Assembly (NCBI GenBank): GCA_019358985.1
Contig: JAHHIJ010000038.1
Coordinates: 1 to 64,000, forward strand
Direction: 5' to 3'
Origin: Tolypothrix brevis GSE-NOS-MK-07-07A
GTDB taxonomy: Bacteria > Cyanobacteriota > Cyanobacteriia > Cyanobacteriales > Nostocaceae
Length of the DNA stretch: 64,000 bases
Each line of letters starts with the position of its first letter. Within the stretch, counting starts at the first letter, position 1. The notes under the pieces were generated by a model, which saw nothing but the letters and a program-made list of their open reading frames with translations, made no database searches and was not told the DNA's origin. Position numbers and translations under genes: made by a program. Of this stretch, positions 6,423 through 64,000 are shown in pieces.

Positions 6423-6423
6423 T

Positions 6424-25792: not shown

Positions 25793-25799
25793 ATATAAA

Positions 25800-25921
25800 A
25801 CTTACGCATTAAACATCTCTCAAAACTATCAAAGTTATCTAAATACCGAAGAACGTTTCTCCTTCTTAGGACTTACGCAATTGGCACAAAGTGCGGGTGG
25901 GGGGCTTCGCCCCCGCCGCAC
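25800..25921. repeat. AGGACTTACGCA copies and GC-rich hairpin
   Basis: ACTTACGCATTAAACATCTC at 25,801 and TAGGACTTACGCAATTGGCA at 25,867 are two end sequences of the same miniature-element family, in the same orientation. They are followed at 25,891-25,921 by a strong hairpin, GTGCGGGTGGGGG / CCCCCGCCGCAC with a CTTCG loop. Confidence 0.5.
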
Positions 25922-25976
25922 GGCAATTTAAATTAGACCAAACACATATTAATATCTGGACATTTTAGTTGCTGAA

Positions 25977-38800: not shown

Positions 38801-38968
38801 GGCACCTCCAGGGAATCGGCAGCCCATTCCAATGATGGCGATCGGCTCGTTCTGAGAACGCTCAACTGCCTCTAGTTTACCCAAAGCTTCATCTAAAGCA
38901 AGAAGCAGCCGTTTTGAAGAAGATAGTTGGTTAACTCTTTCGGAAATATCCTTCATCTTAGTTACCAT
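35843..38968 (-). CDS. Type I PKS module 4: KS-(dead AT)-ACP
   Basis: 1,041 residues, unusually short. KS is intact (Cys214, His349, His389). The AT-like region has GHGVG at 663-667 in place of GHSxG, so Gly665 replaces the catalytic serine; GQGSQ is GEGSQ; and about 69 residues forming the ferredoxin-like small subdomain, including the HAFH histidine, are missing after Met703 (compare PKS5). The post-AT linker ends normally at LQLPTYPFQRRRYW. No reductive domains. ACP Ser955 in GMDSLLAVELKN is intact. N-terminal docking helix and C-terminal tail are present. Its start overlaps the end of PKS3 by 11 bp. If active it would leave a beta-keto group, with malonyl supplied by another AT. Confidence 0.88.
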   Translation of the reverse strand: MVTKMKDISERVNQLSSSKRLLLALDEALGKLEAVERSQNEPIAIIGMGCRFPGGADDPEAFWQLLHDGVDAITEIPLQRWDMDLYYDPDPKSAGKMYIRHAGLLQQVDQFDPQFFGISPREASSMDPQQRLLLEVSWEALENAGVAPHDLSDSQTGVFLGIGQNDYSRLQLHSGEHTRINAYDGTGNGFCFAAGRLSYVLGLQGPSMAIDTACSSSLVAIHLACQSLRAGECNLALAAGVQLILSPEVTIFLSRAQALSSDGRCKTFDSAANGYGRGEGCGVVVLKRLHDAIADGDNILALIKSSAVNHDGPSSGFTVPNKIAQQTLLQKALANAKVKPSQVSYVEAHGTGTSLGDPVEVQALATVFGEERSPENPLIIGSVKTNIGHLETAAGIAGLIKVVLSLQHQQIPPHLHFKQPNPHINWDKLPVKVPTSLVSWNSEKRQRLAGVSSFGMSGTNAHVILEEAPLPQSVPSAVADRPQHLLTLSAKTEEALKQLARRYKNYLATHPKSDIADICFTSHTGRSHFNHRLSVLASSSTELMEQLAAFASGQKATGVLQGRLQEQNPSGIVFLFTGEGSQYKGMGRQLYETQPTFRSCLDRCNEILRPYLEQPLLEVLYPKADENDLLNETVYTQLVLFAFEYALAYLWQSWGISPNAVMGHGVGEYVAACVAGVFSLEDGLKLIAERGRLIQTLTQEGRMESTLAVFKNIAKEVTYSPPHLNIISNVTGTTVGEEITTPEYWCLHMQQPVQFAPGLQTLAHKGYEIFIEMGSKLSLLEMDREIIWLSSLCPKQEDWQQILQSLGELYVRGVSIDWYSFDQGDSRSRLQLPTYPFQRRRYWVETDSNVHPTNSRQNSKNPETEVLLRQTAELLPKLLEALTKQPQANGSFNGVKQVSEHQEPRLLQHLKDMLHSERPAFLIAHLQNEVATVLRLDPSQLPEKKLSFFDMGMDSLLAVELKNRLETSLGNSISPTLAFNYPNIESLAKYLLNEVTGLDSIEESDAEFQEENHHLTQIVLEIENLSEEEVENLLAQKLATL

Positions 38969-43975: not shown

Positions 43976-46900
43976 TCAACCTAAGTTTGCTAGTTTTTCG
44001 GCAAGTAAAGTGGCGAGTTCATCTTGGGATAGTTCTGCGAATAGCTCAGCTTTGTTGTCTACCTCTGGTGGTTGTTGTGGTTGCACATCAGATTCTGAAT
44101 AAAATTCTAAAGTAAGCACTTCTTGGATGAGGTAATCTACAAGTGTTTCTACATTTGGATTGTCAAATGCTATGGTTGGAGGCAATGAACAGGCTAAACT
44201 CTTTTGCAGACGATTTCTTAACTCGACAGACATTAAAGAATCCATCCCCAGTTGGAAAAATCCCTGCTGCACATCTATGGTTTGTGATACACTTAAATTT
44301 AAAACTTTCGCGACTTGAGAACGAACGTGAGCTACTAATAACGCCCGATACTCGCTAGCAGGAACAGCCTGTAATTGTTGGAGGAATTCAGATTCCAATA
44401 GTTGATCTGAAGGCTGCTCAGATATTTGCTGAAAATCAGCTAAAAACGACCAATCGGCAAATTTTTCTCTAAACTGCAACCAGTCGATGGGCAATACCCC
44501 AATTTGAGCAGATGAGTGTGGCGATCGCGACAATAATTGCTCCAGTACTTGCAAGACTTGCTGAGGAGCTATAGTGCCAATTCCCCGTGCCTTCATACGT
44601 TCCTCTACTTGAAGTTTGGCTGCAACTCCAACCTCCGCCACCGCTCCCCAGTTAATACTTAATCCCGGTAGCCCCTGTGCACGGCGGTAACATGCCAAGG
44701 CATCTAAAAATGCATTAGCAGCAGCGTAATTAGCTTGCCCTGGTGAACCTAGTAGAGCAGCAGCAGATGAAAACAGCACAAAAAAGTCTAACGGTAGATT
44801 GTGAGTCAAACAGTGGAGATTCCAAGAGCCTGTGACTTTGGGAGCCATGACTTTCTCAAAGCGTTCCCAATTTTGCTGTTGTAGAATGCCATCATCCAAA
44901 ACACCGACTGAATGAATAATCCCTCGTAATGGCGGCAGAGATTTCTCAATTTCTGCCAGCACCTGCGTCAGTTGCAAACTATCAGATATATCTGCTTTAG
45001 TCACAACGACTTTAGCACCACCCTCTTTTAGCTTGCTTAATTGACTGCTGACTGCTGCGCTCACATCACTCCGCCCTACTAGTACTAAGTGCCGTGCCCC
45101 ATTTTCTACCATCCAATCTGCTACTAGTAAACCTAAACCTCCCAAACCGCCAGTGATGAGATAAGTACTATCCTCACGGAAGAGAGTTGGTTGCTCAATC
45201 TGCAAAGATGCCATGACTGAGGATTGGGAGACAGTTGTGCGATCGCCAGTAGATTCAGCATGCTGTTTTTGGTTAACATCCACTTCCAGCTGCTTTTGTA
45301 CTTCACTATTTTGGGTTTGGCGACTATGCACTAATCTAGCCACATAACGACTTTGATTTCGGAAAGCGACTTGATTTTCCTCAGCCGGTGACCAAATTTC
45401 GGCAAATAGAACTTGTGCCTGATGTGCCATAGCCTCTGGATCTAAATCCACGCACACACAATTAAGTTCTGGGTGTTCTCTGGCAATCACTCTTCCCATT
45501 CCCCACAAGGTAGATTGAGCCAGGAAAGGAACATCTCCATGACAAGCCGGAGATTGACATTCTGGAATGACTACTGGCACCCCACCTCGGGTAACTATCC
45601 ATACCCTTGGCGGTTGCAACAATCCCGCCGACTCTACCAGTGCTTGTACTAAGTATAAAAGACTGCCGCATCCTTGCTCAAACGCCTTCTTAGAATCAGG
45701 ACTTGCTTGAGATGTATCTAAGCTCCATAAATGTACGACTCCATGCAAAGACGGTTGAATTGTTTTCACGACTTCTAGCAATTGCTGATAGTCACTCAGA
45801 TTGCTGGAGTCAATCTCAAACTCTTGCTCGGCTAATTGTTTATACTCATTACCCGCAAAGATAATTGTACAAATTTCTCCTTGGGAGCGCAGAGTTATTG
45901 CTAACTGCTGCCCTAACCTTTGGCTATCTGCTAAAATTAGCCAATTCCTCGGCTGTGATACCACTACCTCTGATTTAGCCTGTATAACTTGCTGTCGCCA
46001 CTCTACCTCATAAAGCCAATTCTGCAGATGTTCCTGAGTTGCGCCTAAGAGGGTTTGACTATTGATTTTTCTTCCTTCAAAGCCAATAACTTCTGCAATA
46101 ACTTCTTCAGTTTGGTCGATGAGTCGTATATTCCCTGTGAGTTTGTTTTCTCCAGACTCTTCTTTTTGCTGTAAATAGGTATGACACCATAACTGAGAAC
46201 TACTGGGATGACGATAAAAATAGAATTTTTCTATACTAAATGGAACAAAAGTTTCTTCTCCCTCAGTATTAACAAGAACTGACAAAAGCTGGAAGCAGGA
46301 GTCAAGTAGACCTGGATGAAGTTGATACCTCTCAATATCATCTAGTCCTTCTGGAACTTCCATCTGACACAAAGCTTCTTTGTCTCCCTTGTAAACTGAG
46401 CTAATCCATTGAAAGCGTGGACCAAGTTGAATTTGGCGTTGCCATAAATTATTGTAAATTTCTCCACTGGTGATTTCTTGTGGGCATCGAGCTTGTATCT
46501 CTTTAATAGAGACTGGTAAGAACACTTTGTTAGAGACAACCTCTTTTTTCGCGGGTTTGATTCTCCCAGTTGCATGCACTTTCCAATCACTATTATCAGT
46601 TTCTAGGCTGATAAGTTTAAAAGAAGCTTCTAACTGATTTTCTGGAGTTATTAGCAACTGGATGGTAGTTACTTCTTCTTTTGAAAGAATGAGAGCCTGA
46701 GGAAAGAGCAGATCTTCTAGTATACATCCTTCAGCTTTGAAAGTTAGTTCACTAGCACCTAAAAGCAAAGATATATGACACGCTCCAGGTACGACGACTT
46801 TTTCGTAAATTTGGTGGTCTTCAAGAAAAGACTGGGTATGAATACTAAACTGAGATTCAAACAAAATTTCTTTAAGCAGTGGAGACTGCAACTTTTTATC

Positions 46901-49705
46901 CAATAAAGGATGAAGCGCCTCGGACTTACTTTGGGAAGAGGCTAGCAACTTCTGCTTCTCCAATGTAGTAGACTCAATCAAATAACGCTGCCGCTGAAAT
47001 GGATATGTTGGCAATTGTAAACGGCAACGGGAATAGTCCCGGTCAAAAGCAAACCAGTCAACAGAAACGCCACGGACATAGAGTTGAGCTAAACTCAGAA
47101 GCATTTGTTGCCAGTCTTCTTGTCCGGGATGTAAACTAGGAAGCCAAACTCCCACATTTGAGGCTAAGCATTTGCGACCCATAGCTAAAAGAGTTGGTTT
47201 GGGTCCGCACTCGACAAAGACCTCATACCCTTGCTGATGCAATGTTTTGATGCTGTCGGCAAATTGCACAGGTTGTCGCAAATGTTTGACCCAATATTCA
47301 GCAGTGGCAATTTCTGCATTGACTGGAGTTCCGGTGAGGTTAGAAATCATCTCAATGCGGGGACAAGAGTATGTGACTTGTTGGGCCGCACGAGCAAAAT
47401 CTGCCAGTATCGGTGCCATCAACGGTGAGTGGAAGGCATGAGAGACTGACAACTTTTTCGTCAGCACTTTTTCGGCTTCTAAGGCGGCAACAATCGCCGC
47501 GACTGCTCGAGGATGACCGGAAATCACTACATTTTCAGGACCATTAATCGCCGCAATCGCCACTTGCGCGGAGTAGGATTGAATTGCATCTCTCACCAAC
47601 TCAGCATCAGCAAACACAGCGACCATTTCACCATCACCAGGCATTTCCTGCATCAACCGTCCGCGTTGTGCAATCAATTTCAAACCATCTTCCAGGCTAA
47701 ATACTCCCGCCACGCAAGCGGCGACGTATTCCCCCACACTATGACCCATAACCGCATCTGGAGTTATACCCCAGGATTTCCATAACTGAAATAGGGCATA
47801 TTCTAGGGCAAATAGGGCAGGTTGTGTATAGGCTGTGTCATCTAGGGGGCAACTATCTCCAAGCTGTGGGTAGAGTACTGAAAGTAGGGGTTTTTCCAGA
47901 TGGGGCCGCAAAATTTCATCGCACTGCTCGAGGATGGCGCGGAAGGTAGGTTGTGTTTGATACAATTGTTGCCCCATCTTCACGTACTGCGACCCTTGAC
48001 CTGTGAATAAAAAAGCGATTTTGGGTCGAGCGTTATTGTCTCCAGTCAATACTCCCGTCGGTTTTTGTCCACGAGTAAATGCGGCGAGTTGTTCAGTCGT
48101 CTGGGCGAGTGATTCTGTCAACAGACACAGCCGATGGGAGAAATGCGATCGCCCGGTACTGGCACTGTAGCAGATATCACCGAGCAATAAGTCAGGATGG
48201 GAAGTTACGTAATTTTCATATTGAATCGCTAAATCCTGAAGCGCTTCTGGTGTCTTGGCTGACAGCGTCAACAGATGCCAGGGACGTTTATTATCTACTG
48301 GTACTGCCTGTGATAAAGGTGCTTCTTCTAACACCACATGGGCGTTTGTACCACTAAAACTAAAAGAACTTATACCTGCAAAACGATGCTTTTCTTCTCT
48401 ACGCCACGGAATTTCTGTAGTTGGTATAACTACAGGTATTTGACTCCAAGGAACACGAGGATTTGGCTGTTGAAAGTGTAGATGAGGCGGAATTTCACCA
48501 TGTTGCATGGCTAAAACAACTTTAATCAAACCTGCTATCCCTGCTGCTCCTTCCAAATGACCGATGTTGGTTTTTACTGAACCAATCACTAAAGGCTGGT
48601 CTTGGGGACGTTCTTTGCTATATACATTAACTAGTGCCCCAAGTTCAATCGGATCTCCCAAAGATGTCCCTGTACCATGAGCCTCAACATAGCTTACCTG
48701 GGCGGGTTCAATATTCCCATTAGCCAAGGCTTGACGAATGACTTCTTCTTGAGACGGACCATTGGGCACTGTCAAACCCCCACTAGAACCATCTTGATTA
48801 ACTGCAGAGCCTCGAATAATAGCTAGGATATTATCTTTGTCTGCTAGGGCATCCGACAACCGTTTGAGAACAACTATTCCACAACCTTCTGCTCGAACAT
48901 AACCGTTCGCTTCCGCATCAAAAGTTTTACAACGACCATCAGGTGCCAGCATCTTTGCTTTTGATAAATTGATATTAAGCTCTGGTGAGAGTAACAAGTT
49001 GACTCCCCCTGCCAAGGCTAAATGACTCTCTCTATTGCGTAGACTTTGGCAAGCCAAATGCACTGTTACCAAAGATGAAGAGCAAGCTGTATCAACTGAT
49101 AAACTGGGTCCAGTAAAACCCATAAGATACGACAAGCGACCTGAGGCGACGCAATGAGAATTGCCTGTAGCCAAGTAAGCATCAATTTCCTGAGGATCTC
49201 TAGTTAGCAACCGATACATGTAGTCACTACTACAGATGCCAATAAATACTCCTGTTTTACTATTAAACAATTGTTCGGGCACTTTAGCAGCATTCTCTAG
49301 TGCTTCCCAACTTACTTCCAGTACTAAGCGTTGTTGTGGATCAAGACTGATAACTTCCCGAGGGGAGATGCCGAAAAACTGAGAATCGAAGTCAGATATT
49401 TGACCTAAGAATCCACCATAGCGAGTATACATTTTGCCTGGAGCTTCAAAGTTTGGGTCATAATATGCCTCAATGTCCCACCGAGATTTTGGCACCTCTG
49501 TAATCGCATCTACTTTATTTTTGAGCAACTGCCAAAAAGCTTCTGGATTATTAGCACCTCCAGGAAATCGGCATCCTATACCAACGATCGCAATTGGTTC
49601 TGTGTTGGCACTTTCTAACTGAGCCAGTTTTGCCCTCATCACCTTGATCTCAATCAATGCCTTCTTCATTAATAGCTGGTGGTTTGTATTTGCTATATCA
49701 CTCAT
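43976..49705 (-). CDS. Type I PKS module 2: KS-AT-DH-KR-ACP
   Basis: 1,909 residues. KS with [24 protein letters not shown] (shared cassette) predicts malonyl-CoA. The DH keeps the catalytic His in EDHQIYEKVVVPGACH and the Asp in LLDSCFQ, so it looks active although Glu replaces the motif glycine. KR is B-type (GVLDDGI, with LFSSAAALLGSPGQANYAAA). No enoyl reductase, so a C=C bond is expected. ACP GMDSLMSVELRN. N-terminal docking helix (LLMKKALIEIKVMRAKLAQL) and C-terminal tail (LSQDELATLLAEKLANLG) are present. The start overlaps the PKS1 stop as ATGA, implying translational coupling. Confidence 0.9.
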   Translation of the reverse strand: MSDIANTNHQLLMKKALIEIKVMRAKLAQLESANTEPIAIVGIGCRFPGGANNPEAFWQLLKNKVDAITEVPKSRWDIEAYYDPNFEAPGKMYTRYGGFLGQISDFDSQFFGISPREVISLDPQQRLVLEVSWEALENAAKVPEQLFNSKTGVFIGICSSDYMYRLLTRDPQEIDAYLATGNSHCVASGRLSYLMGFTGPSLSVDTACSSSLVTVHLACQSLRNRESHLALAGGVNLLLSPELNINLSKAKMLAPDGRCKTFDAEANGYVRAEGCGIVVLKRLSDALADKDNILAIIRGSAVNQDGSSGGLTVPNGPSQEEVIRQALANGNIEPAQVSYVEAHGTGTSLGDPIELGALVNVYSKERPQDQPLVIGSVKTNIGHLEGAAGIAGLIKVVLAMQHGEIPPHLHFQQPNPRVPWSQIPVVIPTTEIPWRREEKHRFAGISSFSFSGTNAHVVLEEAPLSQAVPVDNKRPWHLLTLSAKTPEALQDLAIQYENYVTSHPDLLLGDICYSASTGRSHFSHRLCLLTESLAQTTEQLAAFTRGQKPTGVLTGDNNARPKIAFLFTGQGSQYVKMGQQLYQTQPTFRAILEQCDEILRPHLEKPLLSVLYPQLGDSCPLDDTAYTQPALFALEYALFQLWKSWGITPDAVMGHSVGEYVAACVAGVFSLEDGLKLIAQRGRLMQEMPGDGEMVAVFADAELVRDAIQSYSAQVAIAAINGPENVVISGHPRAVAAIVAALEAEKVLTKKLSVSHAFHSPLMAPILADFARAAQQVTYSCPRIEMISNLTGTPVNAEIATAEYWVKHLRQPVQFADSIKTLHQQGYEVFVECGPKPTLLAMGRKCLASNVGVWLPSLHPGQEDWQQMLLSLAQLYVRGVSVDWFAFDRDYSRCRLQLPTYPFQRQRYLIESTTLEKQKLLASSQSKSEALHPLLDKKLQSPLLKEILFESQFSIHTQSFLEDHQIYEKVVVPGACHISLLLGASELTFKAEGCILEDLLFPQALILSKEEVTTIQLLITPENQLEASFKLISLETDNSDWKVHATGRIKPAKKEVVSNKVFLPVSIKEIQARCPQEITSGEIYNNLWQRQIQLGPRFQWISSVYKGDKEALCQMEVPEGLDDIERYQLHPGLLDSCFQLLSVLVNTEGEETFVPFSIEKFYFYRHPSSSQLWCHTYLQQKEESGENKLTGNIRLIDQTEEVIAEVIGFEGRKINSQTLLGATQEHLQNWLYEVEWRQQVIQAKSEVVVSQPRNWLILADSQRLGQQLAITLRSQGEICTIIFAGNEYKQLAEQEFEIDSSNLSDYQQLLEVVKTIQPSLHGVVHLWSLDTSQASPDSKKAFEQGCGSLLYLVQALVESAGLLQPPRVWIVTRGGVPVVIPECQSPACHGDVPFLAQSTLWGMGRVIAREHPELNCVCVDLDPEAMAHQAQVLFAEIWSPAEENQVAFRNQSRYVARLVHSRQTQNSEVQKQLEVDVNQKQHAESTGDRTTVSQSSVMASLQIEQPTLFREDSTYLITGGLGGLGLLVADWMVENGARHLVLVGRSDVSAAVSSQLSKLKEGGAKVVVTKADISDSLQLTQVLAEIEKSLPPLRGIIHSVGVLDDGILQQQNWERFEKVMAPKVTGSWNLHCLTHNLPLDFFVLFSSAAALLGSPGQANYAAANAFLDALACYRRAQGLPGLSINWGAVAEVGVAAKLQVEERMKARGIGTIAPQQVLQVLEQLLSRSPHSSAQIGVLPIDWLQFREKFADWSFLADFQQISEQPSDQLLESEFLQQLQAVPASEYRALLVAHVRSQVAKVLNLSVSQTIDVQQGFFQLGMDSLMSVELRNRLQKSLACSLPPTIAFDNPNVETLVDYLIQEVLTLEFYSESDVQPQQPPEVDNKAELFAELSQDELATLLAEKLANLG
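47043..48358 (-). repeat. Identical 1,316-bp AT cassette, copy in PKS2
   Basis: Partner of 41,206-42,521. The left and right edges of identity are sharp (first mismatches at 47,042 and 48,359 or the next base). It lies within the coding frame of both genes and includes no mobile-element sequence. Confidence 0.9.
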
Positions 49706-52700
49706 TGAGCTTTATCCTTTTCCGTATTTGCTATTTCTTGGCCTAACAAGTCTGCGATTTCATCTTGGGATAGCGAGTCCAGAAAAACTGATAGCTCAGT
49801 TCGGGCGTCTGCGTTTTGTAACTTTCCTCTTGACTCATCGTCAAACTCCATCTGCAACACTTCTAAAGCCAGATAATTAACCAATGCTTCTACTGTTGGA
49901 TAATCAAATATTAAAGTTGAGCGTAAAGATTGCCCGAGACTGACATCCAGCCAATTTTTTAAGTCAACCGCCATGAGGGAGTCTATGCCCAAATCAAATA
50001 ATCTTTGACGTGGCAAGATTTGCTCTGGTGAAGTCAAACCCAAAACTTTGGCTACTTGAGAGCTTACATAAGTCGTTAATAGTTCCCGACGCTTATGAGC
50101 AGGAGTAGCTTTTAATTTTTCTAGCAACTCATATCGCAGCTTTGACGGTTGCTGAAATACTTGTACAAAACTCTCGAAAAACAAAGTTGACGATGTCTGC
50201 AACCACTTGCTCCAGTTCATTGGCTGCACTGCCACTTGAGTTGCATTATGTCTAAGTAATTCACTCAGTATTTGTAGTCCTTGTATAGGGAGAATATAAT
50301 CCAAACCCCGATCCACTATTTGCTCTTGGTTTTTATCTCCCAGTGCTGCTGCCATACCTAGCTTTGCCCATGGTCCCCAGTTAATACTGAGTCCAGGTAA
50401 ACCTAAGGCCCGACGGTGATGAACGAGAGCGTCCATGAAGGCATTGGCGGCTGCATAGTTTCCTTGACCTAATGAACCGAATAATGAGGCAATTGATGAG
50501 AAACAAACGAAAAAGTCCAGTGGCAAGTCCTGTGTTAATGTATGCAGATTCCATACTCCTTCCACTTTCGGAGCCATTACCCGCTGGAAACGTTCCCAGT
50601 TTTGTTGCAATAGTATTCCATCATCTAGAATACCCGCAGCATGTACGACTCCTCGCAAAAGAGGCATTGATACTTTCACCGTCTCCAACAAACTGGCTAC
50701 ATCTTGAAAATGAGAGACATCGGTTTTGACAACTAAAACTTTAATCCCAGCATTCTCGAATTGGCTAATAACTTTTTGTGCTATGTTTGAGGCGTCATGA
50801 CGTCCGGTTAGCACTAGGTGGCGTGCTCCTTGCTCTACTAACCACTGTGCTACCTGAAGTCCTAGTGCTCCTAACCCTCCGGTAATCAAGTAACTACTTT
50901 CTTTTTGAATAAAAACTTTTTCAGTGATATAAGTATTTTGTGTTAAAACTTCTCTGTCAAGGTGCTTAGTATTGGTAATATAGTGCTGGGAAGGTTGATT
51001 TGCAGAAACTTGATCGTCATAGTGCGTACGTTGCAATCTAGCTACATAACGGGTTCCCTGACGATAGGCAATTTGATTTTCTTGATCAGGAGACCACACT
51101 TGTGTGAATATTGCTTGAGCTTCATCTGTCGTCTCTCCCAATGGATCTAAGTCCAGGCGCATACAGTGAAGGTCGGAATGTTCCAGATCAATGACTCGAC
51201 CTAGTCCCCATAAAGGAGCTTGTTGCACTTGTAAGGGTGTTGACGTACCCACTGGTTGAGAGCCTTTAGTTATCAGAGATAGATGAGGCAAAGAAGACCA
51301 TCCAGCTTGTACTAATGCCTGAATTATATGCAGTACACTGCCACAGCCCAAAACTTGCGTTTTTTGTAAAACACTAGGGGAAGATACTTCATCTAATGTC
51401 TTTTCCAAACTCCACAAATGGACTATTCCCCGGCAAGGAGGTTGATTATCCCTGAGCATTTCTGAGAATAAATCTTGGAAATCATTTAGATTCGACGGGT
51501 TGAGGTAGTAATGTTCGAGAGAAAAATTTTCATAAGCTTGACCGGGAAAGATTAATAGACAACGATCACCACGCTCTTTAAAAAGTTGAGCTAGCTTAAC
51601 TCCGATGCCTCCAGCATCAGCAAAGATTAACCAGCTACCAGGTTTTTCTAAGAAAAAAGGTTGTGGATTTTCTTCATAAACCTTGGGTTGCCAAGTAATT
51701 CTATACAGCCAGGTTTCTAAATCTTTTTGAGTATTCCCCAACAACTCACGACTGGTTTTCTTTAAAGAAAGCTGCTCTACTTGAGCTACAATGGCTCCAG
51801 TTTCATCATATATATATATATTGGCTGTGAGAGTTTGCTGATTTGATTCCTGGATTGGATGCAACTGAACATAACTCCACAAGTTTATTCCAAAACTGCA
51901 GTAAATCCTCAGACGCTCTAAACCCGATAGCAAATAGGTTTCTGATTTAAGCGAGTCAGGAAAAGCCGCCATAACAACTTGAAAGCAAGCATCGAGTAGT
52001 ACTGGATGAAGCTTATACTCTCCTGCCTCTAAAAATAATGCTTCTGGTATCCGAATCTTGCCTAAGGCTTCTCCTGTTAGCTGGATTTCTTTCTTTACTA
52101 AAGGCATTTTCCATAGACATTCCAGAGCTTGAAAGGTAGCTCCATAGTTAATTGAGCGTTCTTGACACTGTTGATAATAGTCTGAAACCAAGATTTTTTG
52201 AGAGCATCTTGCTTCCAAAGCAGCCAAGTTAGTATGAGACTTTTGTTGGTCTTTTTCCTCCACAAGGACTTTACCAGTAGCATGAAGCGTCCAAGATGGC
52301 TCTGAGTCATTTTTATCCCATTGGTTGAGACTAAAAATTTGGAAGAAATACTTTGAAGCTTCTTGAAAAGTCAAAATTAATTGGATTGTCTTGGCTTCTT
52401 TTTCTGGCAGAATTAAAGCGTGAAGGATGAGAACTTCCGCTACCACCAAATTGTCAGATTGTAAAACGGTAACTCCAGCAGAATAGGCCATCTCTAAGTA
52501 ACCAGTAGCTGGAAAAGTCGCTTTCTCATAAACATGTTTATCGCCCAAAAAAGCTGGGACTTTTTGACGGATTTGTGACTCGAAACAAATTTGCTGAGAA
52601 CCTGCTTGATATAGCCGTTGACCAACTAATGGGTGAAATCTTCCATCATTTTTGGTAAGGAATCCTGGTTTTTGACTAACAGTGTCAGTCGCTTCAATCC

Positions 52701-55326
52701 AATAACGCTGTCGTTGCCAGGTGTATGTTGGTAGGGGAAGATGCCGTCGGTGATAATCTCGATCAAAGCTTGACCAATCGACTTTTACGCCACTAATATA
52801 CAACTCCCCCAAACTTTGTAGTAGCTGTTGCCAATCATCTTTTCCCGGACGCATACTGGGCAACCAAAAGTGTTCAACTTCAGAATCTGACAGGCTGCGT
52901 CCCATACCTAACAATGTTGGCTTTGGTCCAATTTCTATAAATACTTGATAGCCTTCCCGAGCAAGGGTTTCCATCCCAGCGGCAAATCTAACTGGTTGCC
53001 GTACATGGTGACACCAATATTCAGGAGTGACTATTTCCGTTTTATCTAAGCCACCAGTAACATTAGAGATTACGTTGATTTTTGGGGATGAGAAGGTGAT
53101 TTCTGAAGCCACTTTTTCAAAAGCCGCCAACATTGGCTCCATTAAAGGAGAGTGGAAGGCATGGGAAACATTTAACTGTCGGGTTTTGATTCCTTCTGCT
53201 TTTAAGGCAGCAATAAAGACCTCTACTGTCCCGCACTTTCCGGAAATCACAATGTTCTCTGGTCCGTTAATGGCGGCGATCGCCACTTCTTGAGAGTATG
53301 GTTGAATGGCGGCTACTACCTGTGCCTCAGGGGCAAACACTGCTACCATCATACCATTTTTAGGTAAGGCTTCCATGAGCTGTGCTCGCTGAACAATCAG
53401 CTTTAAGCCATCTTCTAAACTGAATACCCCGCTAACACAGGCAGCGACATATTCACCTACACTATGACCCATAACGACATCCGGAACTATACCCCAAGAC
53501 TTCCATAGTTCAGCTAAGGCATACTCAAGGGCAAATAATGCTGGTTGGGTGTAAACTGTCTCGTGTAGAGGCGAACTCATCCCAAGTTCAGGATACAGAA
53601 CTGAGAGCAGCGACTGTTCGAGATCAGGACTCAAAATGCGATCGCAAAGGTCAATAGTTCGTCGGAACGTAGGTTGAGTTTCGTAGAGTTGGCGTCCCAT
53701 ATTCACGTACTGAGAACCTTGACCGGTAAAGAGGAAGGCTATCTTAGGTGAATTTCGACTCTGCACAATTCCACTTACTAGTTTGGGAGCATTTTCCCCC
53801 GTTGCAAAAGTACCAAGTGCTCCTTGTAACTGCACATTAGATTCAGCTATAACGGCAAGTCGATGAGTAAAATGCGAACGCCCAGTATTTGCAGTAAAGC
53901 AAACATCGGCTAATAATGTTTCTGGGTGAGATTGAAAGTAAGCGTCGTAACTTTGTGCCAACTCCTGTAGTGCCTTCTCACTTTTCGCTGATAGGGTAAG
54001 AATGTGCAGAGGGCGTTCCATGTCACCAGTTACCACATCTACTGTGGGCGCTTCTTCTAAAACTATATGACAATTGGTTCCACCAACGCTAAATCCACTA
54101 ACTCCAGCTAATCGCGGCTCTGTACCAGTAGACCAAGACTGGCACTTAGTCGGGATGCAAAATGGTGTTCCTTCTAGAGAAATATATCGGTTCAGCTGGT
54201 TTAGGTGTAAATGGGGTGGTATTTCCCGATGTTGCAGAGATAATATTACCTTAATTAGACTAGCAACGCCAGCTGCTGACTCCAAATGTCCGACATTAGT
54301 TTTTACAGAACCAATCCAGCAAGGTCGATCTGGAGAACGTCCTTGCATTAATACTGTTTTGAAGGATTCAAATTCAATCGGATCTCCCAAAGAAGTACCA
54401 GTGCCATGAGCTTCAAGGTAACTAATTTGTGCTGGTTGCACAAGAGCGTTTTCCAAGGCTTGGCGGATAACTGCTTGTTGCGAAAGTCCATTGGGAGCGG
54501 TGAACCCATTGCTTAGACCATCTTGGTTAACTGCCGATCCTCTAATAACCGCCAGAATATTGTTTTCATCTTTAAGAGCATCCGAAAAGCGTTTAAGAAC
54601 CAATATCCCACAGCCTTCTCCTCGGACATACCCATTTGCACCAGCATCAAACGTTTTGCAACGGCCATCAGGTGCCATCATGTTTGCTTGAGAAAGAATA
54701 ATGGTTGTGTGTGGAGACAGAATGAGGTTAACTCCTCCTGCTAATGCGAGATGAGACTCTTGATTGTGCAAACTAAGGCATGCAAGATGTATCGCCACTA
54801 GTGAAGCGGAGCAAGCAGTATCCACTGTTATACTTGGTCCGCGCAGATCTAGCAAATAAGACAGACGATTTGCGACAATAGAGTAACTAGTACCAGTACC
54901 GCTGTAAGCATTTAAATGAGCGAGATCTTGGCACATCAGGCGATCGTAGTCGCAGTTACCAACTCCAACAAATACCCCAGTTTGACTGCCAGCTAGCTTG
55001 TCTGACATGATTGCAGAATTTTCTAAAGCTTCCCAAGCCACCTCCAAAACTAGTCTCTGCTGAGGATCCATTTGTTGTGCTTCTCGCGGAGAAATACCAA
55101 AAAAGTTCGCATCAAATTGGTCTACATTTTCTATAAAGCTACCCCAACGGGTACTCATTTTTGTTGGCTTACTTGGTTGTGAATTATAAAACGTGTCAAT
55201 GTCCCATCGTTCTGGTGGCACCTCAGTTATCAAGTCTTTGCCCTCTTTTAACAAATGCCAAAAAGATTCTGGGTCTTTAGCACTGGGAAAACGACACCCC
55301 ATACCAATAATTGCTATAGATTCCAT
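49702..55326 (-). CDS. Type I PKS module 1: KS-AT-DH-KR-ACP
   Basis: 1,874 residues. It starts directly with [14 protein letters not shown], without the N-terminal docking helix found in PKS2-PKS6, as expected for a protein receiving its chain from a free ACP. KS: Cys172, EAHGTGT, KTNVGHLE. AT: Ser622 in GHSVG and HAFHS, malonyl type. The DH reads GDKHVYEKATFPATGY: where the catalytic His is expected (residue 930) there is Lys, with His at 931, while LLDACFQ is kept; activity is doubtful. KR is B-type (ILDDGI, GQGNYAAANAF). ACP GIDSLMAVDLKN. C-terminal tail SLSQDEIADLLGQEIANTEK. It probably makes the first extension of the FAAL-primed acyl chain. Confidence 0.9.
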   Translation of the reverse strand: MESIAIIGMGCRFPSAKDPESFWHLLKEGKDLITEVPPERWDIDTFYNSQPSKPTKMSTRWGSFIENVDQFDANFFGISPREAQQMDPQQRLVLEVAWEALENSAIMSDKLAGSQTGVFVGVGNCDYDRLMCQDLAHLNAYSGTGTSYSIVANRLSYLLDLRGPSITVDTACSASLVAIHLACLSLHNQESHLALAGGVNLILSPHTTIILSQANMMAPDGRCKTFDAGANGYVRGEGCGILVLKRFSDALKDENNILAVIRGSAVNQDGLSNGFTAPNGLSQQAVIRQALENALVQPAQISYLEAHGTGTSLGDPIEFESFKTVLMQGRSPDRPCWIGSVKTNVGHLESAAGVASLIKVILSLQHREIPPHLHLNQLNRYISLEGTPFCIPTKCQSWSTGTEPRLAGVSGFSVGGTNCHIVLEEAPTVDVVTGDMERPLHILTLSAKSEKALQELAQSYDAYFQSHPETLLADVCFTANTGRSHFTHRLAVIAESNVQLQGALGTFATGENAPKLVSGIVQSRNSPKIAFLFTGQGSQYVNMGRQLYETQPTFRRTIDLCDRILSPDLEQSLLSVLYPELGMSSPLHETVYTQPALFALEYALAELWKSWGIVPDVVMGHSVGEYVAACVSGVFSLEDGLKLIVQRAQLMEALPKNGMMVAVFAPEAQVVAAIQPYSQEVAIAAINGPENIVISGKCGTVEVFIAALKAEGIKTRQLNVSHAFHSPLMEPMLAAFEKVASEITFSSPKINVISNVTGGLDKTEIVTPEYWCHHVRQPVRFAAGMETLAREGYQVFIEIGPKPTLLGMGRSLSDSEVEHFWLPSMRPGKDDWQQLLQSLGELYISGVKVDWSSFDRDYHRRHLPLPTYTWQRQRYWIEATDTVSQKPGFLTKNDGRFHPLVGQRLYQAGSQQICFESQIRQKVPAFLGDKHVYEKATFPATGYLEMAYSAGVTVLQSDNLVVAEVLILHALILPEKEAKTIQLILTFQEASKYFFQIFSLNQWDKNDSEPSWTLHATGKVLVEEKDQQKSHTNLAALEARCSQKILVSDYYQQCQERSINYGATFQALECLWKMPLVKKEIQLTGEALGKIRIPEALFLEAGEYKLHPVLLDACFQVVMAAFPDSLKSETYLLSGLERLRIYCSFGINLWSYVQLHPIQESNQQTLTANIYIYDETGAIVAQVEQLSLKKTSRELLGNTQKDLETWLYRITWQPKVYEENPQPFFLEKPGSWLIFADAGGIGVKLAQLFKERGDRCLLIFPGQAYENFSLEHYYLNPSNLNDFQDLFSEMLRDNQPPCRGIVHLWSLEKTLDEVSSPSVLQKTQVLGCGSVLHIIQALVQAGWSSLPHLSLITKGSQPVGTSTPLQVQQAPLWGLGRVIDLEHSDLHCMRLDLDPLGETTDEAQAIFTQVWSPDQENQIAYRQGTRYVARLQRTHYDDQVSANQPSQHYITNTKHLDREVLTQNTYITEKVFIQKESSYLITGGLGALGLQVAQWLVEQGARHLVLTGRHDASNIAQKVISQFENAGIKVLVVKTDVSHFQDVASLLETVKVSMPLLRGVVHAAGILDDGILLQQNWERFQRVMAPKVEGVWNLHTLTQDLPLDFFVCFSSIASLFGSLGQGNYAAANAFMDALVHHRRALGLPGLSINWGPWAKLGMAAALGDKNQEQIVDRGLDYILPIQGLQILSELLRHNATQVAVQPMNWSKWLQTSSTLFFESFVQVFQQPSKLRYELLEKLKATPAHKRRELLTTYVSSQVAKVLGLTSPEQILPRQRLFDLGIDSLMAVDLKNWLDVSLGQSLRSTLIFDYPTVEALVNYLALEVLQMEFDDESRGKLQNADARTELSVFLDSLSQDEIADLLGQEIANTEKDKAQ

Positions 55327-55435: not shown

Positions 55436-55972
55436 TTACAACATAATAGGATTTTCAATCTTTTTACTGATAAAATCAATGGTTTGTTGTACTGTCAAAA
55501 GTACTTCATCTACTACTTTAGTATGAATTTCAATGTTGAAGGCTTCTTCTAGAGCGTTAAATAATTCTAATATGTCTAAAGAATCTGCTTCTAAGTCATT
55601 CACAAAGTTTGATAGAGGGTTGATTTTATTTGCTTCTATTCCTAATTTATCTGCAACAATAACTCGTAATTTTGCCAAAATTTTTAGTTTTTTTAAGCGA
55701 TTGAGTTGAATCGGTTCTTTAACTTCCTCAATTAGCTTACCTATCTCTTTCAAAACTGTTACAATACGCTGGTAACACTGCTCTTCCTCACTATTGAGAA
55801 TACATTCGTGATTTTTTAGCCAGTTTTTACAAATTTGATAACTTTCAAGGTGGACGTTCCAAAACTCCGGTGGTAAATCCTTAAAGTCATGGTTTTTCTC
55901 GCTCCAAACAAGTCCTTCAGGGATGCTCTGCTTTGAATTTATATATTTTAGTGGTTCGATCATATTATTCAC
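55436..55972 (-). CDS. Acyl carrier protein with R-M-enzyme-like N-terminal domain
   Basis: 178 residues. The C-terminal part (about 98-175) is an AcpP-type carrier, with the phosphopantetheine serine at 131 (NDLEADSLDILELFNALEEA). The first 90 residues are not a carrier: LPPEFWNVHLESYQICKNWL, then an acidic link and YQRIVTVLKEIGKLIEEV, resemble the C-terminal segment of many type ISP/Eco57I-like restriction-modification enzymes (consensus PPEVW.F.IGGYQVC.KWLK ... YQ.IV.AL.ET..LM.EI). The gene sits between the halogenase and PKS1, so the carrier probably hands the primed chain to the PKS1 ketosynthase. The role of the N-terminal part is unknown; it may be a protein-docking module. Confidence 0.75.
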   Translation of the reverse strand: MNNMIEPLKYINSKQSIPEGLVWSEKNHDFKDLPPEFWNVHLESYQICKNWLKNHECILNSEEEQCYQRIVTVLKEIGKLIEEVKEPIQLNRLKKLKILAKLRVIVADKLGIEANKINPLSNFVNDLEADSLDILELFNALEEAFNIEIHTKVVDEVLLTVQQTIDFISKKIENPIML

Positions 55973-56293: not shown

Positions 56294-57709
56294 TTACGAG
56301 GCTAAATGTTTAGCCAAAGTCTCTATATTAGGGTAATTGTAAAGCAAAGTAGGAGAAAGGTCTCGTTCCAGCCAAGCCCCCAGTTCACCAGTCAGAATTG
56401 CTGAATCAGCTGAGCCTAAAGCGTAGCGCTCAAAAAGAAGAGTGCAATCTACCTTGTGTGATTCCATTTTCAGCAGTTTAGCTACATAAGCGACTAACCA
56501 AGCTTTAATCTCTTCGTCTAAAGGTAGTTTCTTTTGTTGATCTATGGGTGGCAGTTCCGCTATTAGTTGGCTGTACTGTTTCATCGCTTCTGGGCGACTC
56601 GTTCCCTTCAGTTGATGCCATGCTTGCCATTGAATATACTTTCGTGGTTGTAGAATTGGGTCTGGCTCCTCTTGTTGGCAATCCCCTTCCATCGCCTGTT
56701 GGTAGAGACTCTCAATCTCTATTTGTTGCTTGCCTTGGGGCAGTTTAACATGACCAAAGCGTACTAAATTAGCCATGTTATGAAATTCTACTTCTGTATC
56801 GTCTAAATCATTCCATTCTCTGACAATATTAATTCCATAATCATCACATCCCGACACTAAAAAAGAAAAATGCCTTTTTATATTGTGGAAGTTTTCGTCG
56901 ATGAAATCATCTTGCATCCGATGCGGATAAATCTGCACACTGGGACGAACGTAACGTGCGTTAATACCTAATCGGCGTTGAGCGGAGTTATTGCCACGAG
57001 AACAATGCATAACCCTTTCAGTGAAGATAATCACCTGACCCGCCTTAGCTGGTGCTGCTTCCACTGTCCATTCATTTTCATTGAAGTCAAATACTGCTGA
57101 GTATTGTCTTCGCCCTTGCCAAACCATTTTATGGTTTTTCACACCTGCAAACATTCCTTCTTCAGGAGAGACTTGCAATCGCCTAAATTTTTTCTCATGG
57201 GTGCCATTGGCAAAATTCAAGCAACCTTTCTCGATAGTAGCATCATCTATTGCCACCCAGACTGTTAGATTTAAAAAATTTTCATCTTTGGGATAAAGCA
57301 GTGCTGGCTTCTGAGGGTCATAAGCACTAGGATCGTAAGAATTATAAACTTGATGCCACTTGATCTCACCTTCTCCTGGCATTTTGCAAAAGACATTTGT
57401 ATTCCACAACAGGAGATTAGGTTCACCCAGTTGGTTTAACAGGCTAACAAGTTTGGGATTTTTAAAAAAGTTAGCTATTGGTTTGTGGAACAGATGAAGG
57501 TCACGAGATGTGTTGAGGTTCATTATATTGTTGTAGAAGGTCATCATCTGTTGACCTTCTACTTCTTTAACAGAACTATGAGTTTCTAAGCATTGTTTAA
57601 GAGCTTCAAACTCTGAAGGCAAAAATACATCAAGAGGACCAACCCATCCTTTCTGTGCAAAATGCTTTATTTGACCTTCAGTCAACTTAATTTGGTCTTG
57701 AGTCAACAT
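56294..57709 (-). CDS. HctB-like Fe/2OG halogenase - ACBP-like - ACP
   Basis: 471 residues from the ATG at 57,709, chosen because AAAGGG sits about 7 bases upstream and homology begins here; the longer frame to 57,802 runs through a miniature element. Residues 5-300 follow SyrB2 closely: LTEGQIKHFAQKGWVGPLDV, KWHQVYNSYDP, DATIEKGCLNFANGTH and AGQVIIFTERVMHCSRGN. Metal ligands are His119 and His235; the position of the usual carboxylate is Val121 (Ala118 in SyrB2), leaving room for halide. Arg252 should bind 2-oxoglutarate. Residues 330-390 (LYQQAMEGDCQ, YIQWQAWHQLKGTSRPEAMK) resemble acyl-CoA-binding protein. Residues 400-471 are an ACP (Ser436 in LGSADSAIL). This order, next to a FAAL, resembles HctA-HctB of hectochlorin. 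Predicted: chlorination of the ACP-bound fatty acyl chain. Confidence 0.8.
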   Translation of the reverse strand: MLTQDQIKLTEGQIKHFAQKGWVGPLDVFLPSEFEALKQCLETHSSVKEVEGQQMMTFYNNIMNLNTSRDLHLFHKPIANFFKNPKLVSLLNQLGEPNLLLWNTNVFCKMPGEGEIKWHQVYNSYDPSAYDPQKPALLYPKDENFLNLTVWVAIDDATIEKGCLNFANGTHEKKFRRLQVSPEEGMFAGVKNHKMVWQGRRQYSAVFDFNENEWTVEAAPAKAGQVIIFTERVMHCSRGNNSAQRRLGINARYVRPSVQIYPHRMQDDFIDENFHNIKRHFSFLVSGCDDYGINIVREWNDLDDTEVEFHNMANLVRFGHVKLPQGKQQIEIESLYQQAMEGDCQQEEPDPILQPRKYIQWQAWHQLKGTSRPEAMKQYSQLIAELPPIDQQKKLPLDEEIKAWLVAYVAKLLKMESHKVDCTLLFERYALGSADSAILTGELGAWLERDLSPTLLYNYPNIETLAKHLAS

Positions 57710-57736
57710 ATACATACCCTTTCTATTTTTTAATCC

Positions 57737-57900
57737 AGGACTTACGCAACTGGTACAGCGATCGCCTACGAAACTCTTGCCGAGTAGCCAAAAACTAAAC
57801 AAGAAACTAGGACTTACGCATTGAGAAAATAGCCAATAAGTGGATTAAGCACAAGGAAGGAAATTTTCAGGCGATCGCTTGTGCCAGTTGCATAAGTCCT
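57737..57900. repeat. AGGACTTACGCA miniature element (164 bp)
   Basis: Imperfect inverted ends of about 30 bp: AGGACTTACGCAACTGGTAC on the left and the complement of AGGACTTATGCAACTGGCAC on the right, each followed by GCGATCGCC. A further AGGACTTACGCATTGAG sits inside at 57,809. It lies 28 bp upstream of the chosen halogenase start, so it may supply or interrupt the promoter. Confidence 0.7.
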
Positions 57901-58326
57901 GTAATCAACGAATGACTTACATCTCTATCTTTACCTACTCCCCGCTCCTCCCTCCTCTTTCTTGAGAACAAGCACAAAATAAAACTTGAAACCTTTTACG
58001 ACGCAAACAAAGTTGTATTTATTGGAGATAGATTTCAATATTTTTCTGAGTAGGCAAACGTAGAATTTTAGATTTATACTTTATTTTATCATACTATTAA
58101 AAATAAAAAATCATAATTCCTAAATTTCAATTTTTAATAAATTCAGATTTTTTAAAAGGTTGAAGGATAAAGGGCAAGCTGCTTTTGCCTAAATTTGGAA
58201 CTAGCGGCATAATTGTAGTTTAAATAGAGGTATTTTAGTCGCTAAAAATGCAGCAGCTTACAAAAGTTTGCCTACGCCTCATGCCTAACTTTCACAAATA
58301 ATTATTTATTTTCTCCATCTGACTTA
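57901..58326. other. 426-bp spacer upstream of halogenase, downstream of FAAL
   Basis: AT-rich, with no ORF. If the halogenase operon has its own promoter it lies here or in the adjoining miniature element; otherwise it is read through from the FAAL gene. No terminator hairpin with a T-run is obvious on the minus strand. Confidence 0.35.
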
Positions 58327-60084
58327 TTACTTATGTGAGTTTTCTAGATTGCTAGCACCTATATTTAAGACTTCAAGAGTTCCCTCTAAAAACTTAGTTC
58401 GACAGGCATGACGCATAATTTTGCCACTTGAAGTTTTGGGAAGGCTTCCTGGCTTAATTAATACTACAACATCAGTCCGTAGCTCATGTTCCATCATCAA
58501 CGCTTGTCTAATATCTCCAATAACCTCATCCAGATCCAGCTTCCGCAACCAAGTTCGTTCCACCTCGTGAACAACAACCAGTTGCTCCTGATTATCTACC
58601 TCAACTCCAAAAGCTGCTCCACAGCCTATACGTAATCCTAGATGGCTTTGTTCCACTGTCAGTTCAATATCTTGAGGATAATGATTGCGACCTCGGATGA
58701 TAATTAAATCCTTGAGGCGACCGGTAACGAACAACTCTTTATCCTTGACAAATCCCAGATCACCAGTACGTAGAAATGGACCTTCACCTGTATCTGACAA
58801 ATAAGCTTGAAAGGCTTGCTCCGTTTCCTCAACTCGCATCCAGTAGCCTTGAGCCACAGTAGAACCTGACACCCAAATTTCACCCACTTCTTCAGGTGGA
58901 CATTGGGTTAATGATTCAGGATGAACAATGATGATTTTCGTATCGATCTTACTCCATCCACATCCAACCAGAGTTCGTACCATTTGAGTGTCTTGAGTAG
59001 CCTCCTTAACCCTATTCTTTTCCAGCGCTTCTGCTTGAGCTCTAAAAGATTTCGGTGAAGCCCCTACCTGCACAGCAGTCACTTTGAGAGTTGCTTCAGC
59101 AAGACCATAGCCAGGACAGAAAGTAGTTATGTTAAAACCACAGGGAGCAAAAGCTTTAGAAAACCGTTTGATGAGATCGTATCTCACAAGTTCTGCACCA
59201 TTTAAAGCCACACGCCAGCAACTAAGGTCTAGGGTAGTTCGTAGTTCCGGAGGAATCTTATCTATACAAAGCTGGTAAGCAAAATTAGGCGCACCACTAT
59301 GAGTAGCCTTGTACCGCGAAATTGCCTGCAACCATCGCAAGGGACGTTGAAGAAAAGCCATTGGACTCATCATATAACAGGGAAACCCCTTGTATAAAGG
59401 TTGAAATATCCCATAGATAAGTCCCATATCATGAAAGGTAGGAAGCCATGTGACTATTACACTATCTGATGTATGTTCCCATCCCAGGTCGAGATCCTCC
59501 AAATTACACAATAGGTTGTTGTGACTTACCATAACCCCTTTAGGCTGACTCGTGGAACCCGACGTGTATTGAAGATAGGCTAACGTTTTGCCACTTAGTG
59601 GTATCTTGCTGAAATTTGTCTCCAAATTATCAACAATGTTATCCGTAACTATCCATTGCAGCGCTGCCAATTTCGACATTTGAGCAAATCGCTCTTTCAT
59701 GTTGAGTAGCAAAGATGTTGTGGTAAGTGCTACCTTAGCTTCAGCATCTAATAGAATACTCTGTAACCTAGATTGTTTTTCATTGTGCCAGTTTATGTTA
59801 GTTGGAACCGCCACCACCCCTGCATACAAACATCCAAAGAAAGCTGAAATGAATTCCAGACCTGGTGGGTAGAGCAGTAATGCCCGATCGCCGTCAGTCA
59901 ACCCCTGCTTCTGAAGCTGAGCTGCGATTACCCGCGACTGCTGTTCCAATTCTCCGTACGTCAAGCTTCCTGTCTCGGTTTCCCCATTATAGAGGAATGT
60001 ATAGGCTGTTTGGTTAGATTGATGTGTTCCTCGATAGCGCAGCAGATCTACCAATGTCGAAAATTTCTGCTTAGTGTTCATCAT
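58327..60084 (-). CDS. Fatty acyl-AMP ligase (FAAL)
   Basis: 585 residues (start MMNTKQKF; 60,081 is an equal choice). An adenylating enzyme of the FAAL group: P-loop YTSGSTSQPKGVMVSH (173-188), WLPTFHDMGLI (213-223), PGYGLAEATLKV (324-335), RTGDLGF (439-445) and the C-terminal lysine motif LPKTSSGKIMRHACR with Lys555. The segment following YGLAEAT and the GWSKIDTKIIIVHPES stretch match FAALs rather than acyl-CoA ligases. It activates a free fatty acid as acyl-AMP and loads it on a carrier, here probably the halogenase-fused ACP or the stand-alone ACP. It lacks a fused ACP of its own. First intact gene of the assembly line. Confidence 0.9.
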   Translation of the reverse strand: MMNTKQKFSTLVDLLRYRGTHQSNQTAYTFLYNGETETGSLTYGELEQQSRVIAAQLQKQGLTDGDRALLLYPPGLEFISAFFGCLYAGVVAVPTNINWHNEKQSRLQSILLDAEAKVALTTTSLLLNMKERFAQMSKLAALQWIVTDNIVDNLETNFSKIPLSGKTLAYLQYTSGSTSQPKGVMVSHNNLLCNLEDLDLGWEHTSDSVIVTWLPTFHDMGLIYGIFQPLYKGFPCYMMSPMAFLQRPLRWLQAISRYKATHSGAPNFAYQLCIDKIPPELRTTLDLSCWRVALNGAELVRYDLIKRFSKAFAPCGFNITTFCPGYGLAEATLKVTAVQVGASPKSFRAQAEALEKNRVKEATQDTQMVRTLVGCGWSKIDTKIIIVHPESLTQCPPEEVGEIWVSGSTVAQGYWMRVEETEQAFQAYLSDTGEGPFLRTGDLGFVKDKELFVTGRLKDLIIIRGRNHYPQDIELTVEQSHLGLRIGCGAAFGVEVDNQEQLVVVHEVERTWLRKLDLDEVIGDIRQALMMEHELRTDVVVLIKPGSLPKTSSGKIMRHACRTKFLEGTLEVLNIGASNLENSHK

Positions 60085-62179: not shown

Positions 62180-63463
62180 TCAAACTTTTAAAAGCTGTTC
62201 GATTAGGTCGGCAGCACGTTGCGGTCCGTTATATTGCTTGAACTCTGCTTGCAACCGCTGTGTGTTGTGCTTGTAACGTGGATCGCGCAGGATGGTTTTC
62301 ACGGCATTACGGATCTGTGCTTCTGACGGGGTTCCCGTTTTTAGGTTGATGCCCACACCAGCCCACGCAACACGCGCTGCAATTTCCGGCTTCTCCTCCG
62401 TTGCTCCTGCTACGATGAGCGATACCCCGTTGGATAATGCCATCTGCACGCTGCCAAACCCTCCATTTGTCACCATTACATCCACGTGCGGCATGAGGTA
62501 GTAGTATGGGATAAACTGCTCTAAATGCACATTGTGCGGCAGCGGGTCAAGCTTGATATTTTCAACAGGGATGCCGCCTGTAGTTGCAACGACGAGTACA
62601 TCCTCAAGACTTAGTGCCCGTATCGCCGGAATGAGAAGATTGCTCAGATCTGAGTTCGCCAAAGTGCCTTGAGTAATCAGGATTACTGGTCGCTCGCCGT
62701 GCAGATCGTCCCACCACGCGGGCGGGTTAAACTGCTCCACTGGTGGACTGATTAGGGTACCAACAAAATGCGTGTTTTCATACAGATCGCTACGAGGATA
62801 CTCAAAATCGGGAACAGTTCCGAGCAGATACAAATCCGGTGGCTGGGTAATTCTTTCCAGTACACTCTTGTTGAGTTTCGGTAGATCCACGCTTGCACGG
62901 ATTTTATCTGTGTAGGCTCGCACATCACGTAGAACAATCTTATCTATCAAAAAATGCAAGATGGCATTGCGTAGCCGTCCAAGCGGCGAGCTATTTGGTG
63001 GTAACGCTAGGCCGATAGGCGCGGTATCTTTGCTGCTTAAAGAGTACATTGAAACAGCAACAGCTACCATTGGAATGCTCGTTTTTTCATGCACAAAGCC
63101 CACACCAAAGCATACCTCATCGGCAATAAGTAGATCAGCAGGAAACTCATCCAACAGTCCATAGATATCTTTCATTTGTTTGGGAGCTTGCTCAATAAAG
63201 AGCGTTTTCAGGGTGGCGATCAAAGCCGACAACCCTTGCAAACTATGAAGTTGCGGAAAGGCTTCGTCTCGACTCATTCCGCTAAAATCATAGGCTGCCT
63301 GCATCGGTTTATAAATGGCTCCAAATCGCTCAATTTTGGGTTGGAATACCTTGCCAGCGTACCACCAGACTGTATGTCCACGATTAACTAACTCGCAGGC
63401 AACTGAAGCTACGGGGTTAAAGTGACTCTCTACTGGTGCTGTCGCTATCAAGATACAAGCCAT
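62180..63463 (-). CDS. GT1-family glycosyltransferase, macrolide GT-like
   Basis: 427 residues with two Rossmann halves. The N-terminus ILIATAPVESHFNPVASVAC ELVNRGH is the acceptor-side start of YjiC/MGT-type enzymes. The C-terminal half has LITQGTLAN, HVDVMVTNGGFGSVQMALSN, the donor-binding signature with its conserved glycines, and VAGATEEKPEIAARVAWAGV. This family transfers a sugar from an NDP donor to hydroxyls of polyketides and other lipophilic acceptors. An AGGAG site lies about 8 bases before the ATG. By eye its base composition is more GC-rich than the PKS genes, so it may have a separate origin. It is separated from the FAAL by the IS4 remnant but shares strand with the cluster. Confidence 0.8.
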   Translation of the reverse strand: MACILIATAPVESHFNPVASVACELVNRGHTVWWYAGKVFQPKIERFGAIYKPMQAAYDFSGMSRDEAFPQLHSLQGLSALIATLKTLFIEQAPKQMKDIYGLLDEFPADLLIADEVCFGVGFVHEKTSIPMVAVAVSMYSLSSKDTAPIGLALPPNSSPLGRLRNAILHFLIDKIVLRDVRAYTDKIRASVDLPKLNKSVLERITQPPDLYLLGTVPDFEYPRSDLYENTHFVGTLISPPVEQFNPPAWWDDLHGERPVILITQGTLANSDLSNLLIPAIRALSLEDVLVVATTGGIPVENIKLDPLPHNVHLEQFIPYYYLMPHVDVMVTNGGFGSVQMALSNGVSLIVAGATEEKPEIAARVAWAGVGINLKTGTPSEAQIRNAVKTILRDPRYKHNTQRLQAEFKQYNGPQRAADLIEQLLKV

Positions 63464-63598: not shown

Positions 63599-64000
63599 TC
63601 AATCTAGCTTTGCGCTGCGTCGGCGTGTAATTCGTGTTTGCAACTGCTGCTCAACTGATGGAGGAACTGCTACTCCTGCAAGCATCGAATAGTCTGGCGT
63701 AACCGTCCAATCATAACACTGTAGTAAAGTAGCCAAGAAAATCTTCATTTCCATCTTGGCGAATTCCATTCCAATACAAGCGTGTTCACCACCCCCAAAA
63801 CCAACGAGAGAGAAAGGGACTTTCTTATCTTCCTCACGAGGAGGTGCAAAGCGCTCTGGATCAAAACAACGGGGATCTTTATAAATCTCTGGTAAAAAGT
63901 GCGTTAAGCCTTGAGCAACCATGATAGTCCAACCAGGAGGAATTCGATATCCAGCATAGTTAATCTCTTTGACTACTCCACGAAGTAGCACAACACCTGA
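63599..64000 (-). CDS. Cytochrome P450, C-terminal part (cut by window edge)
   Basis: The visible 133 residues are the end of a P450: INYAGYRIPPGWTIMVAQGL, the PERF region FDPERFAPPREED and the heme-binding loop VGFGGGEHACIGMEFAKMEM with the cysteine thiolate ligand. The style resembles CYP120-like cyanobacterial enzymes. The frame is open to the window edge. It is oriented like the PKS cluster and 135 bp upstream of the glycosyltransferase, so it probably hydroxylates the polyketide, perhaps creating the site for glycosylation. Confidence 0.85.
   Translation of the reverse strand, partial: SGVVLLRGVVKEINYAGYRIPPGWTIMVAQGLTHFLPEIYKDPRCFDPERFAPPREEDKKVPFSLVGFGGGEHACIGMEFAKMEMKIFLATLLQCYDWTVTPDYSMLAGVAVPPSVEQQLQTRITRRRSAKLD

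Follow-up and report, generated by a model that had tools for sequence, protein, structure and literature searches.

On the minus strand of the window, by which we mean the whole stretch of 64,000 nucleotides that was analysed, the open reading frame 56294-57802 contains the gene of an HctB-type Fe(II)/2-oxoglutarate halogenase-ACBP-ACP protein. If translation starts at ATG 57709, as assumed in the preliminary description, the gene spans positions 56294-57709 and encodes 471 amino acids. A start at 57715 is also possible, and the stretch GGTATGTATATG, which includes both candidate starts, is kept in a relative from Scytonema (L017, 92% identical). The protein is composed of a PhyH/halogenase domain in residues 1-300 (56810-57709, placed by Pfam and alignments; Pfam E-value 3.6e-17), an acyl-CoA-binding-protein-like domain (ACBP, 56564-56788; 1.1e-14) and a C-terminal acyl carrier domain (56303-56500, PP-binding; 1.7e-5), in which Ser433 (codon 56413-56411) is likely the phosphopantetheine site according to the surrounding motif. 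The domain scan returned the same order, halogenase-ACBP-ACP, for the Moorena protein L019. The NCBIfam model TIGR01762 ("chlorinating enzyme") matches the window protein with an E-value of 7.9e-32 and 110.7 bits, below its cut-off of 226.3 bits, and L019 likewise stays below it with 132.3 bits. Only one of 386 cyanobacterial genomes passes this cut-off; seven match the model at all, each of them already found with the window protein, and none of 14 control genomes does. Structure predictions of the halogenase domain from 13 sequences had a mean pLDDT of 37 and were left out of any fold search.

The halogenase gene sits between a fatty acyl-AMP ligase gene (FAAL, 58327-60084) on one side and a carrier protein gene and six polyketide synthase (PKS) modules on the other, all on the minus strand. 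The FAAL, assigned by domain match and locus comparison, likely activates the starter acid. The separate acyl carrier protein (ACP) of 178 amino acids (55436-55972, domain match) was matched in L017 alone among the 20 loci searched. According to the domain scan the modules are organized as KS-AT-DH-KR-ACP (49702-55326 and 43976-49705), KS-AT-KR-ACP (38958-43868), KS-AT-ACP (35843-38968, the best AT stretch covering just the first 131 of 319 profile positions), KS-AT-KR-ACP (30958-35718) and KS-AT-DH-ACP (27000-30827, with the AT in two stretches and no KR match). Beyond the FAAL, and again on the minus strand, lie a macrolide-type glycosyltransferase gene (62180-63463, domain match and locus comparison), whose product shares 93.5% identity with its L017 counterpart over 293 residues, and the C-terminal part of a cytochrome P450 that runs off the window (63599-64000, domain match). 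The gap between glycosyltransferase and FAAL measures about 2.1 kb in the window; in L017 three large open reading frames separate the two genes, which we read as two efflux parts and a ketosynthase-like protein.

This arrangement recurs among the relatives. A FAAL gene adjoins the halogenase gene in 13 of the 20 loci (L003, L017-L019, L022-L028, L033, L039), and a PKS match follows the halogenase gene directly in 13 of 20. No FAAL was seen in the searched stretch of the other seven (L005, L020, L021, L038, L040, L041, L042), of which L040-L042 hold HctB-like proteins that, judged by their length, are without a fused carrier domain.

Mobile elements surround and interrupt the cluster, and we considered that the halogenase might be a silent or decaying pathway gene. 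A 180-bp repeat with inverted ends of 29 nt (83% complementary) lies between the FAAL and halogenase genes at 57729-57908 at a distance of 19 bp before the halogenase start codon; it is not recognisable in L017, and of its 18 matches in the genome (40 of 163 candidates were scored) 15 are at other places, where they correspond to parts of the repeat. Transposase genes come after the last PKS module, and the gap between FAAL and glycosyltransferase holds a weak transposase remnant (Pfam, below cut-off). Reverse transcriptases and transposases, of Tn3 type and others, occupy 731-7409 and 23004-26849 to the left of the PKS genes, and the open reading frames 24164-25792 (542 amino acids) and 7910-11605 (1231 amino acids) have no Pfam match at 1e-5. 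A thioesterase or NRPS domain was found in none of the 25 window proteins scanned, a set that leaves aside two open reading frames of 150-160 amino acids. Against decay, the reading frame of the halogenase gene is intact and its start region is kept. The dN/dS ratio lies between 0.12 and 0.17 in all five comparisons (dS being nearly saturated in two) and is 0.15 towards the 92%-identical L017. The halogenase gene is under purifying selection, and we regard its silence or decay as improbable.

The metal site of the protein reads Trp-His119-Gln120-Val121 (HQV at 57347-57355, minus strand; codons, numbered from 57709, 57355-57353, 57352-57350 and 57349-57347). Residue matching to published HctB positions places this motif opposite His111-x-Val113 of HctB, the distal iron ligand His235 (57005-57007) opposite His227 and Glu231 (57017-57019) opposite Glu223; Arg252, the equivalent of HctB Arg245, is present as the second member of the second shell. 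In HMMER alignments, with the single sequence and with a 13-row profile alike, Val121 stands opposite the Ala that follows WHQ in SyrB2 (2fct) and CytC3 (3gja). The preliminary description of an HctB-like halogenase with a His-Gln-Val motif, in which the carboxylate of the facial triad is missing and Val takes its place, is thus borne out by the domains, by both His ligands and by the alignment at the halide position.

It had further taken the Val as a mark that sets the protein apart from known halogenases, and this part has to be given up. In a QM/MM study of HctB (PMC6218459) the iron ligands are His111 and His227, and Val113 is listed near the metal together with Ile108, Phe221, Glu223, Val225, Met226, Asn243 and Arg245. 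The motif itself is not new, because HctB carries the same valine. A frequent HxV among known halogenases had been named as a finding that would speak against the claim; since HctB has Val113, this is in essence the case at the scope of the nearest known enzyme, and not of all known halogenases. The survey of homologues points the same way. Position 121 is Ala in ten, Val in nine and Tyr in one of the 20 distinct HctB-like rows, so that Val is not exceptional there, and a sequencing slip at Val121 is ruled out by the same count.

The equivalence to HctB rests on 24 published residue numbers (11 His and 13 others), because the HctB record AAY42394.1 was absent from the comparison. Every aligned row was tested against these positions at its best offset. 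Four distinct Moorena-type proteins (L002, L019, L021, L033) agree in 24 of 24, all read WHQV, and none has a further His within positions 1-280. As judged by the published residue numbers, and not by the HctB record, these four are HctB or near it; L019 and L021 carry the name Moorena, as does the locus L020, to which L002 is identical, and L033 has the same genus code as the genome of L002. Aligned at a single offset, the window protein matches 16 of the 24 positions. A gap of one residue accounts for five of the eight misses (N243, R245, H256, H268, H273), so that H157N, D202N and S141T (HctB to window protein) are left, and the two His ligands are 116 residues apart in both proteins. The structure in PMC6218459 is a model and no crystal structure of HctB with substrate, and the study's statement that Glu223 occurs only in HctB is contrary to our alignment, where the equivalent Glu is found in 20 of 20 HctB-like rows and in 15 of 17 others. 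In three actinobacterial relatives the place of Glu231 is taken by Ser.

At an E-value of 1e-3, 14 of 386 cyanobacterial genomes match the window protein, the source genome included; beyond it two matches are close (73% and 56% identity) and the rest lie at 26-41%. Within the order, 29 of 388 genomes match at 1e-20, again including the source. Among genome contigs 13 loci were found, with identities of 55-92% in twelve and 24% in one; the viral contigs scanned contained no relative, and 33 records of the plasmid collection match, the best 20 of 33 at 25.1-29.5% identity, four of which were read. After ten identical copies had been merged, 47 rows were aligned and 37 kept for residue counts and tree. 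The ten rows dropped were eight distant oxygenases (six with Asp in HQD or HRD, one HQG, one without an aligned letter), a partial frame and a row of unreadable letters. Six of 36 order-level matches were without a locus and stayed uncounted; two of them were read later (HQT in L067, HQA in L060).

Both His ligands occur in 37 of 37 rows, and position 121 in the 17 rows outside the HctB-like group is Ala in nine, Thr in three, Asn in two and Val, Glu and Ser in one each. The tree was calculated from the 37 rows, the HctB record not among them, with the column of position 121 removed. It unites eight rows, all with Val, in a clade with support 100/99 (the window protein, L017, L018, L022 and the four Moorena-type rows), and seven Ala rows form a separate clade (99/100). 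Val121 is the normal residue of the HctB clade. Two further Val rows lie apart, L038 in the HctB-like group outside both clades, in a poorly resolved part of the tree, and L005 on a long branch in another part of the tree. Since long branches make the placements of L005 and L004 unsure, it is not certain that Val arose twice.

Several relatives deserve to be recorded separately. The HctB-like protein L039 (L064:8311-9774) has HQY, carries Ala in place of the conserved Arg (HctB Arg245) and has an adjoining FAAL gene; its activity is perhaps changed or lost. Stand-alone cyanobacterial SyrB2-like proteins of 362-410 residues as aligned (L048, L050, L052, L053, L054, L055, L006) read HQT, HQN, HQS or HQE. 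A common neighbourhood of DUF3326, a decarboxylase-like PLP enzyme and a methyltransferase occurs in L062, L066 and L067, with identities of 94-99.8%, 84-94% and 86-92%, respectively; it holds a 398-amino-acid HQT protein in L062 and L067 and a stand-alone HctB-like HQA protein in L066. In the stretches of L060 and L061, where the Ser and Asn members occur, neither a decarboxylase nor DUF3326 was matched, and a methyltransferase match at 44% is present in L061. A plasmid enzyme of Nostoc sp. UHCC 0926 (L063:9249-10157) reads HQV outside the HctB clade, exceeds the TIGR01762 cut-off with 352.8 bits and has an NRPS gene on either side, the two encoding condensation, AMP-binding and carrier domains.

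We consider it highly probable that the window protein is an HctB-type non-haem Fe(II)/2-oxoglutarate halogenase which chlorinates a fatty acyl chain bound to an ACP as the starter of a polyketide. Domain order, residue equivalence to HctB, clade, gene context and purifying selection are observed, and the chemistry of HctB is taken from papers. In HctB and SyrB2 two His residues hold the iron, chloride occupies the empty site, the ferryl species takes a hydrogen atom and chlorine rebounds. By analogy, the FAAL would activate a fatty acid and load it onto a carrier domain, either the C-terminal ACP of the halogenase itself or the 178-amino-acid ACP. The iron would be held by His119 and His235, with chloride filling the usual place of the carboxylate because Val121 cannot bind metal. 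The ferryl would then abstract hydrogen from the acyl chain, the chain radical would take the chlorine, and the chlorinated chain could prime the six PKS modules. It is from shared residues, domains and context that we infer the substrate, the halide, chlorination by the window protein, the order of steps and the product, which at a guess is a chlorinated, glycosylated polyketide.

A different outcome had been proposed in the preliminary description from the Val that stands where SyrB2 and CytC3 have Ala, namely a preference for bromide over chloride, hydroxylation, desaturation or no reaction. Glu231, Arg252 and both His ligands are kept. HctB has the same Val, and according to the introduction of PMC6218459, which cites Pratter 2014, it dihalogenates its tethered substrate and forms vinyl-chloride and ketone products on the side. 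The proposed tuning or switching is therefore left without support, and we hold such an outcome to be very improbable.

The wider bearing of the Val residue concerns the motif rule. The preprint PMC12871659 gives His-x-Gly/Ala as the mark of iron halogenases, and PMC8407142 states that Ala or Gly is "usually" found at the carboxylate place. HctB breaks this rule, and a filter built on it would miss both HctB and the relatives that have Val; at the same time the Val motif loses its supposed novelty. Position 121 is freer than the rule allows, with A, V, Y, T, N, S and E in 37 rows. A tentative and rather doubtful reading is that the residue in the place of the carboxylate evolves as a determinant of the pocket and is not a fixed Ala/Gly. 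Under this reading, Val became fixed in the HctB clade and apparently a second time in the NRPS-flanked Nostoc enzyme; one HctB-like protein has Tyr and has lost the HctB Arg245 equivalent, and the stand-alone cyanobacterial family shows Thr, Asn, Ser or Glu. If true, this side chain contributes to halide access, to the choice between mono- and dihalogenation or to the outcome of the reaction. Relatives with Val and with Ala occur naturally on the same scaffold and offer material for testing its role. The locus also adds an orphan FAAL-halogenase-PKS cluster whose product is likely chlorinated. A published survey of cyanobacterial halogenases used HctB among its queries and reported orphan clusters (PMC8406957), and the window gene may therefore already stand in such lists; no title found in the literature on lyngbyabellin/FAAL-halogenase clusters, HctB Val113 or a facial-triad valine names the cluster.

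The closest known system is HctB of the hectochlorin pathway (Lyngbya majuscula/Moorena), described as a three-domain protein in PMC6218459. It shares with the window protein the three domains, the His-x-Val...His spacing and the second-shell Glu and Arg. Over the halogenase domain the Moorena-type proteins are 73-74% identical to the window protein and thus differ in 26-27%. L019 and L033 agree in the FAAL gene beside and the PKS gene after the halogenase, whereas their FAAL gene lies on the opposite strand and that of the window on the same strand. Further down, L019-L021 show a remote AMP-binding match; the window instead continues with six PKS modules, and none of its scanned proteins has an NRPS domain.

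SyrB2 and CytC3 are halogenases of carrier-bound amino acyl substrates. They share the PhyH-type domain, the missing carboxylate and the distal His and can be aligned over the domain, but read WHQA where the window protein reads WHQV, and with chains of 313 and 319 residues they have no fused ACBP or ACP. The Ala-bearing HctB-like proteins L003 and L023-L028 (including Nostoc, Fischerella, Roholtiella, Mastigocoleus and Trichodesmium) resemble the window in a FAAL before and a PKS after the halogenase in seven of seven, and in lengths of 486-501 residues with C-terminal ends that look like carrier domains. They differ in HQA versus HQV and share 50-56% identity with the window protein over its length.
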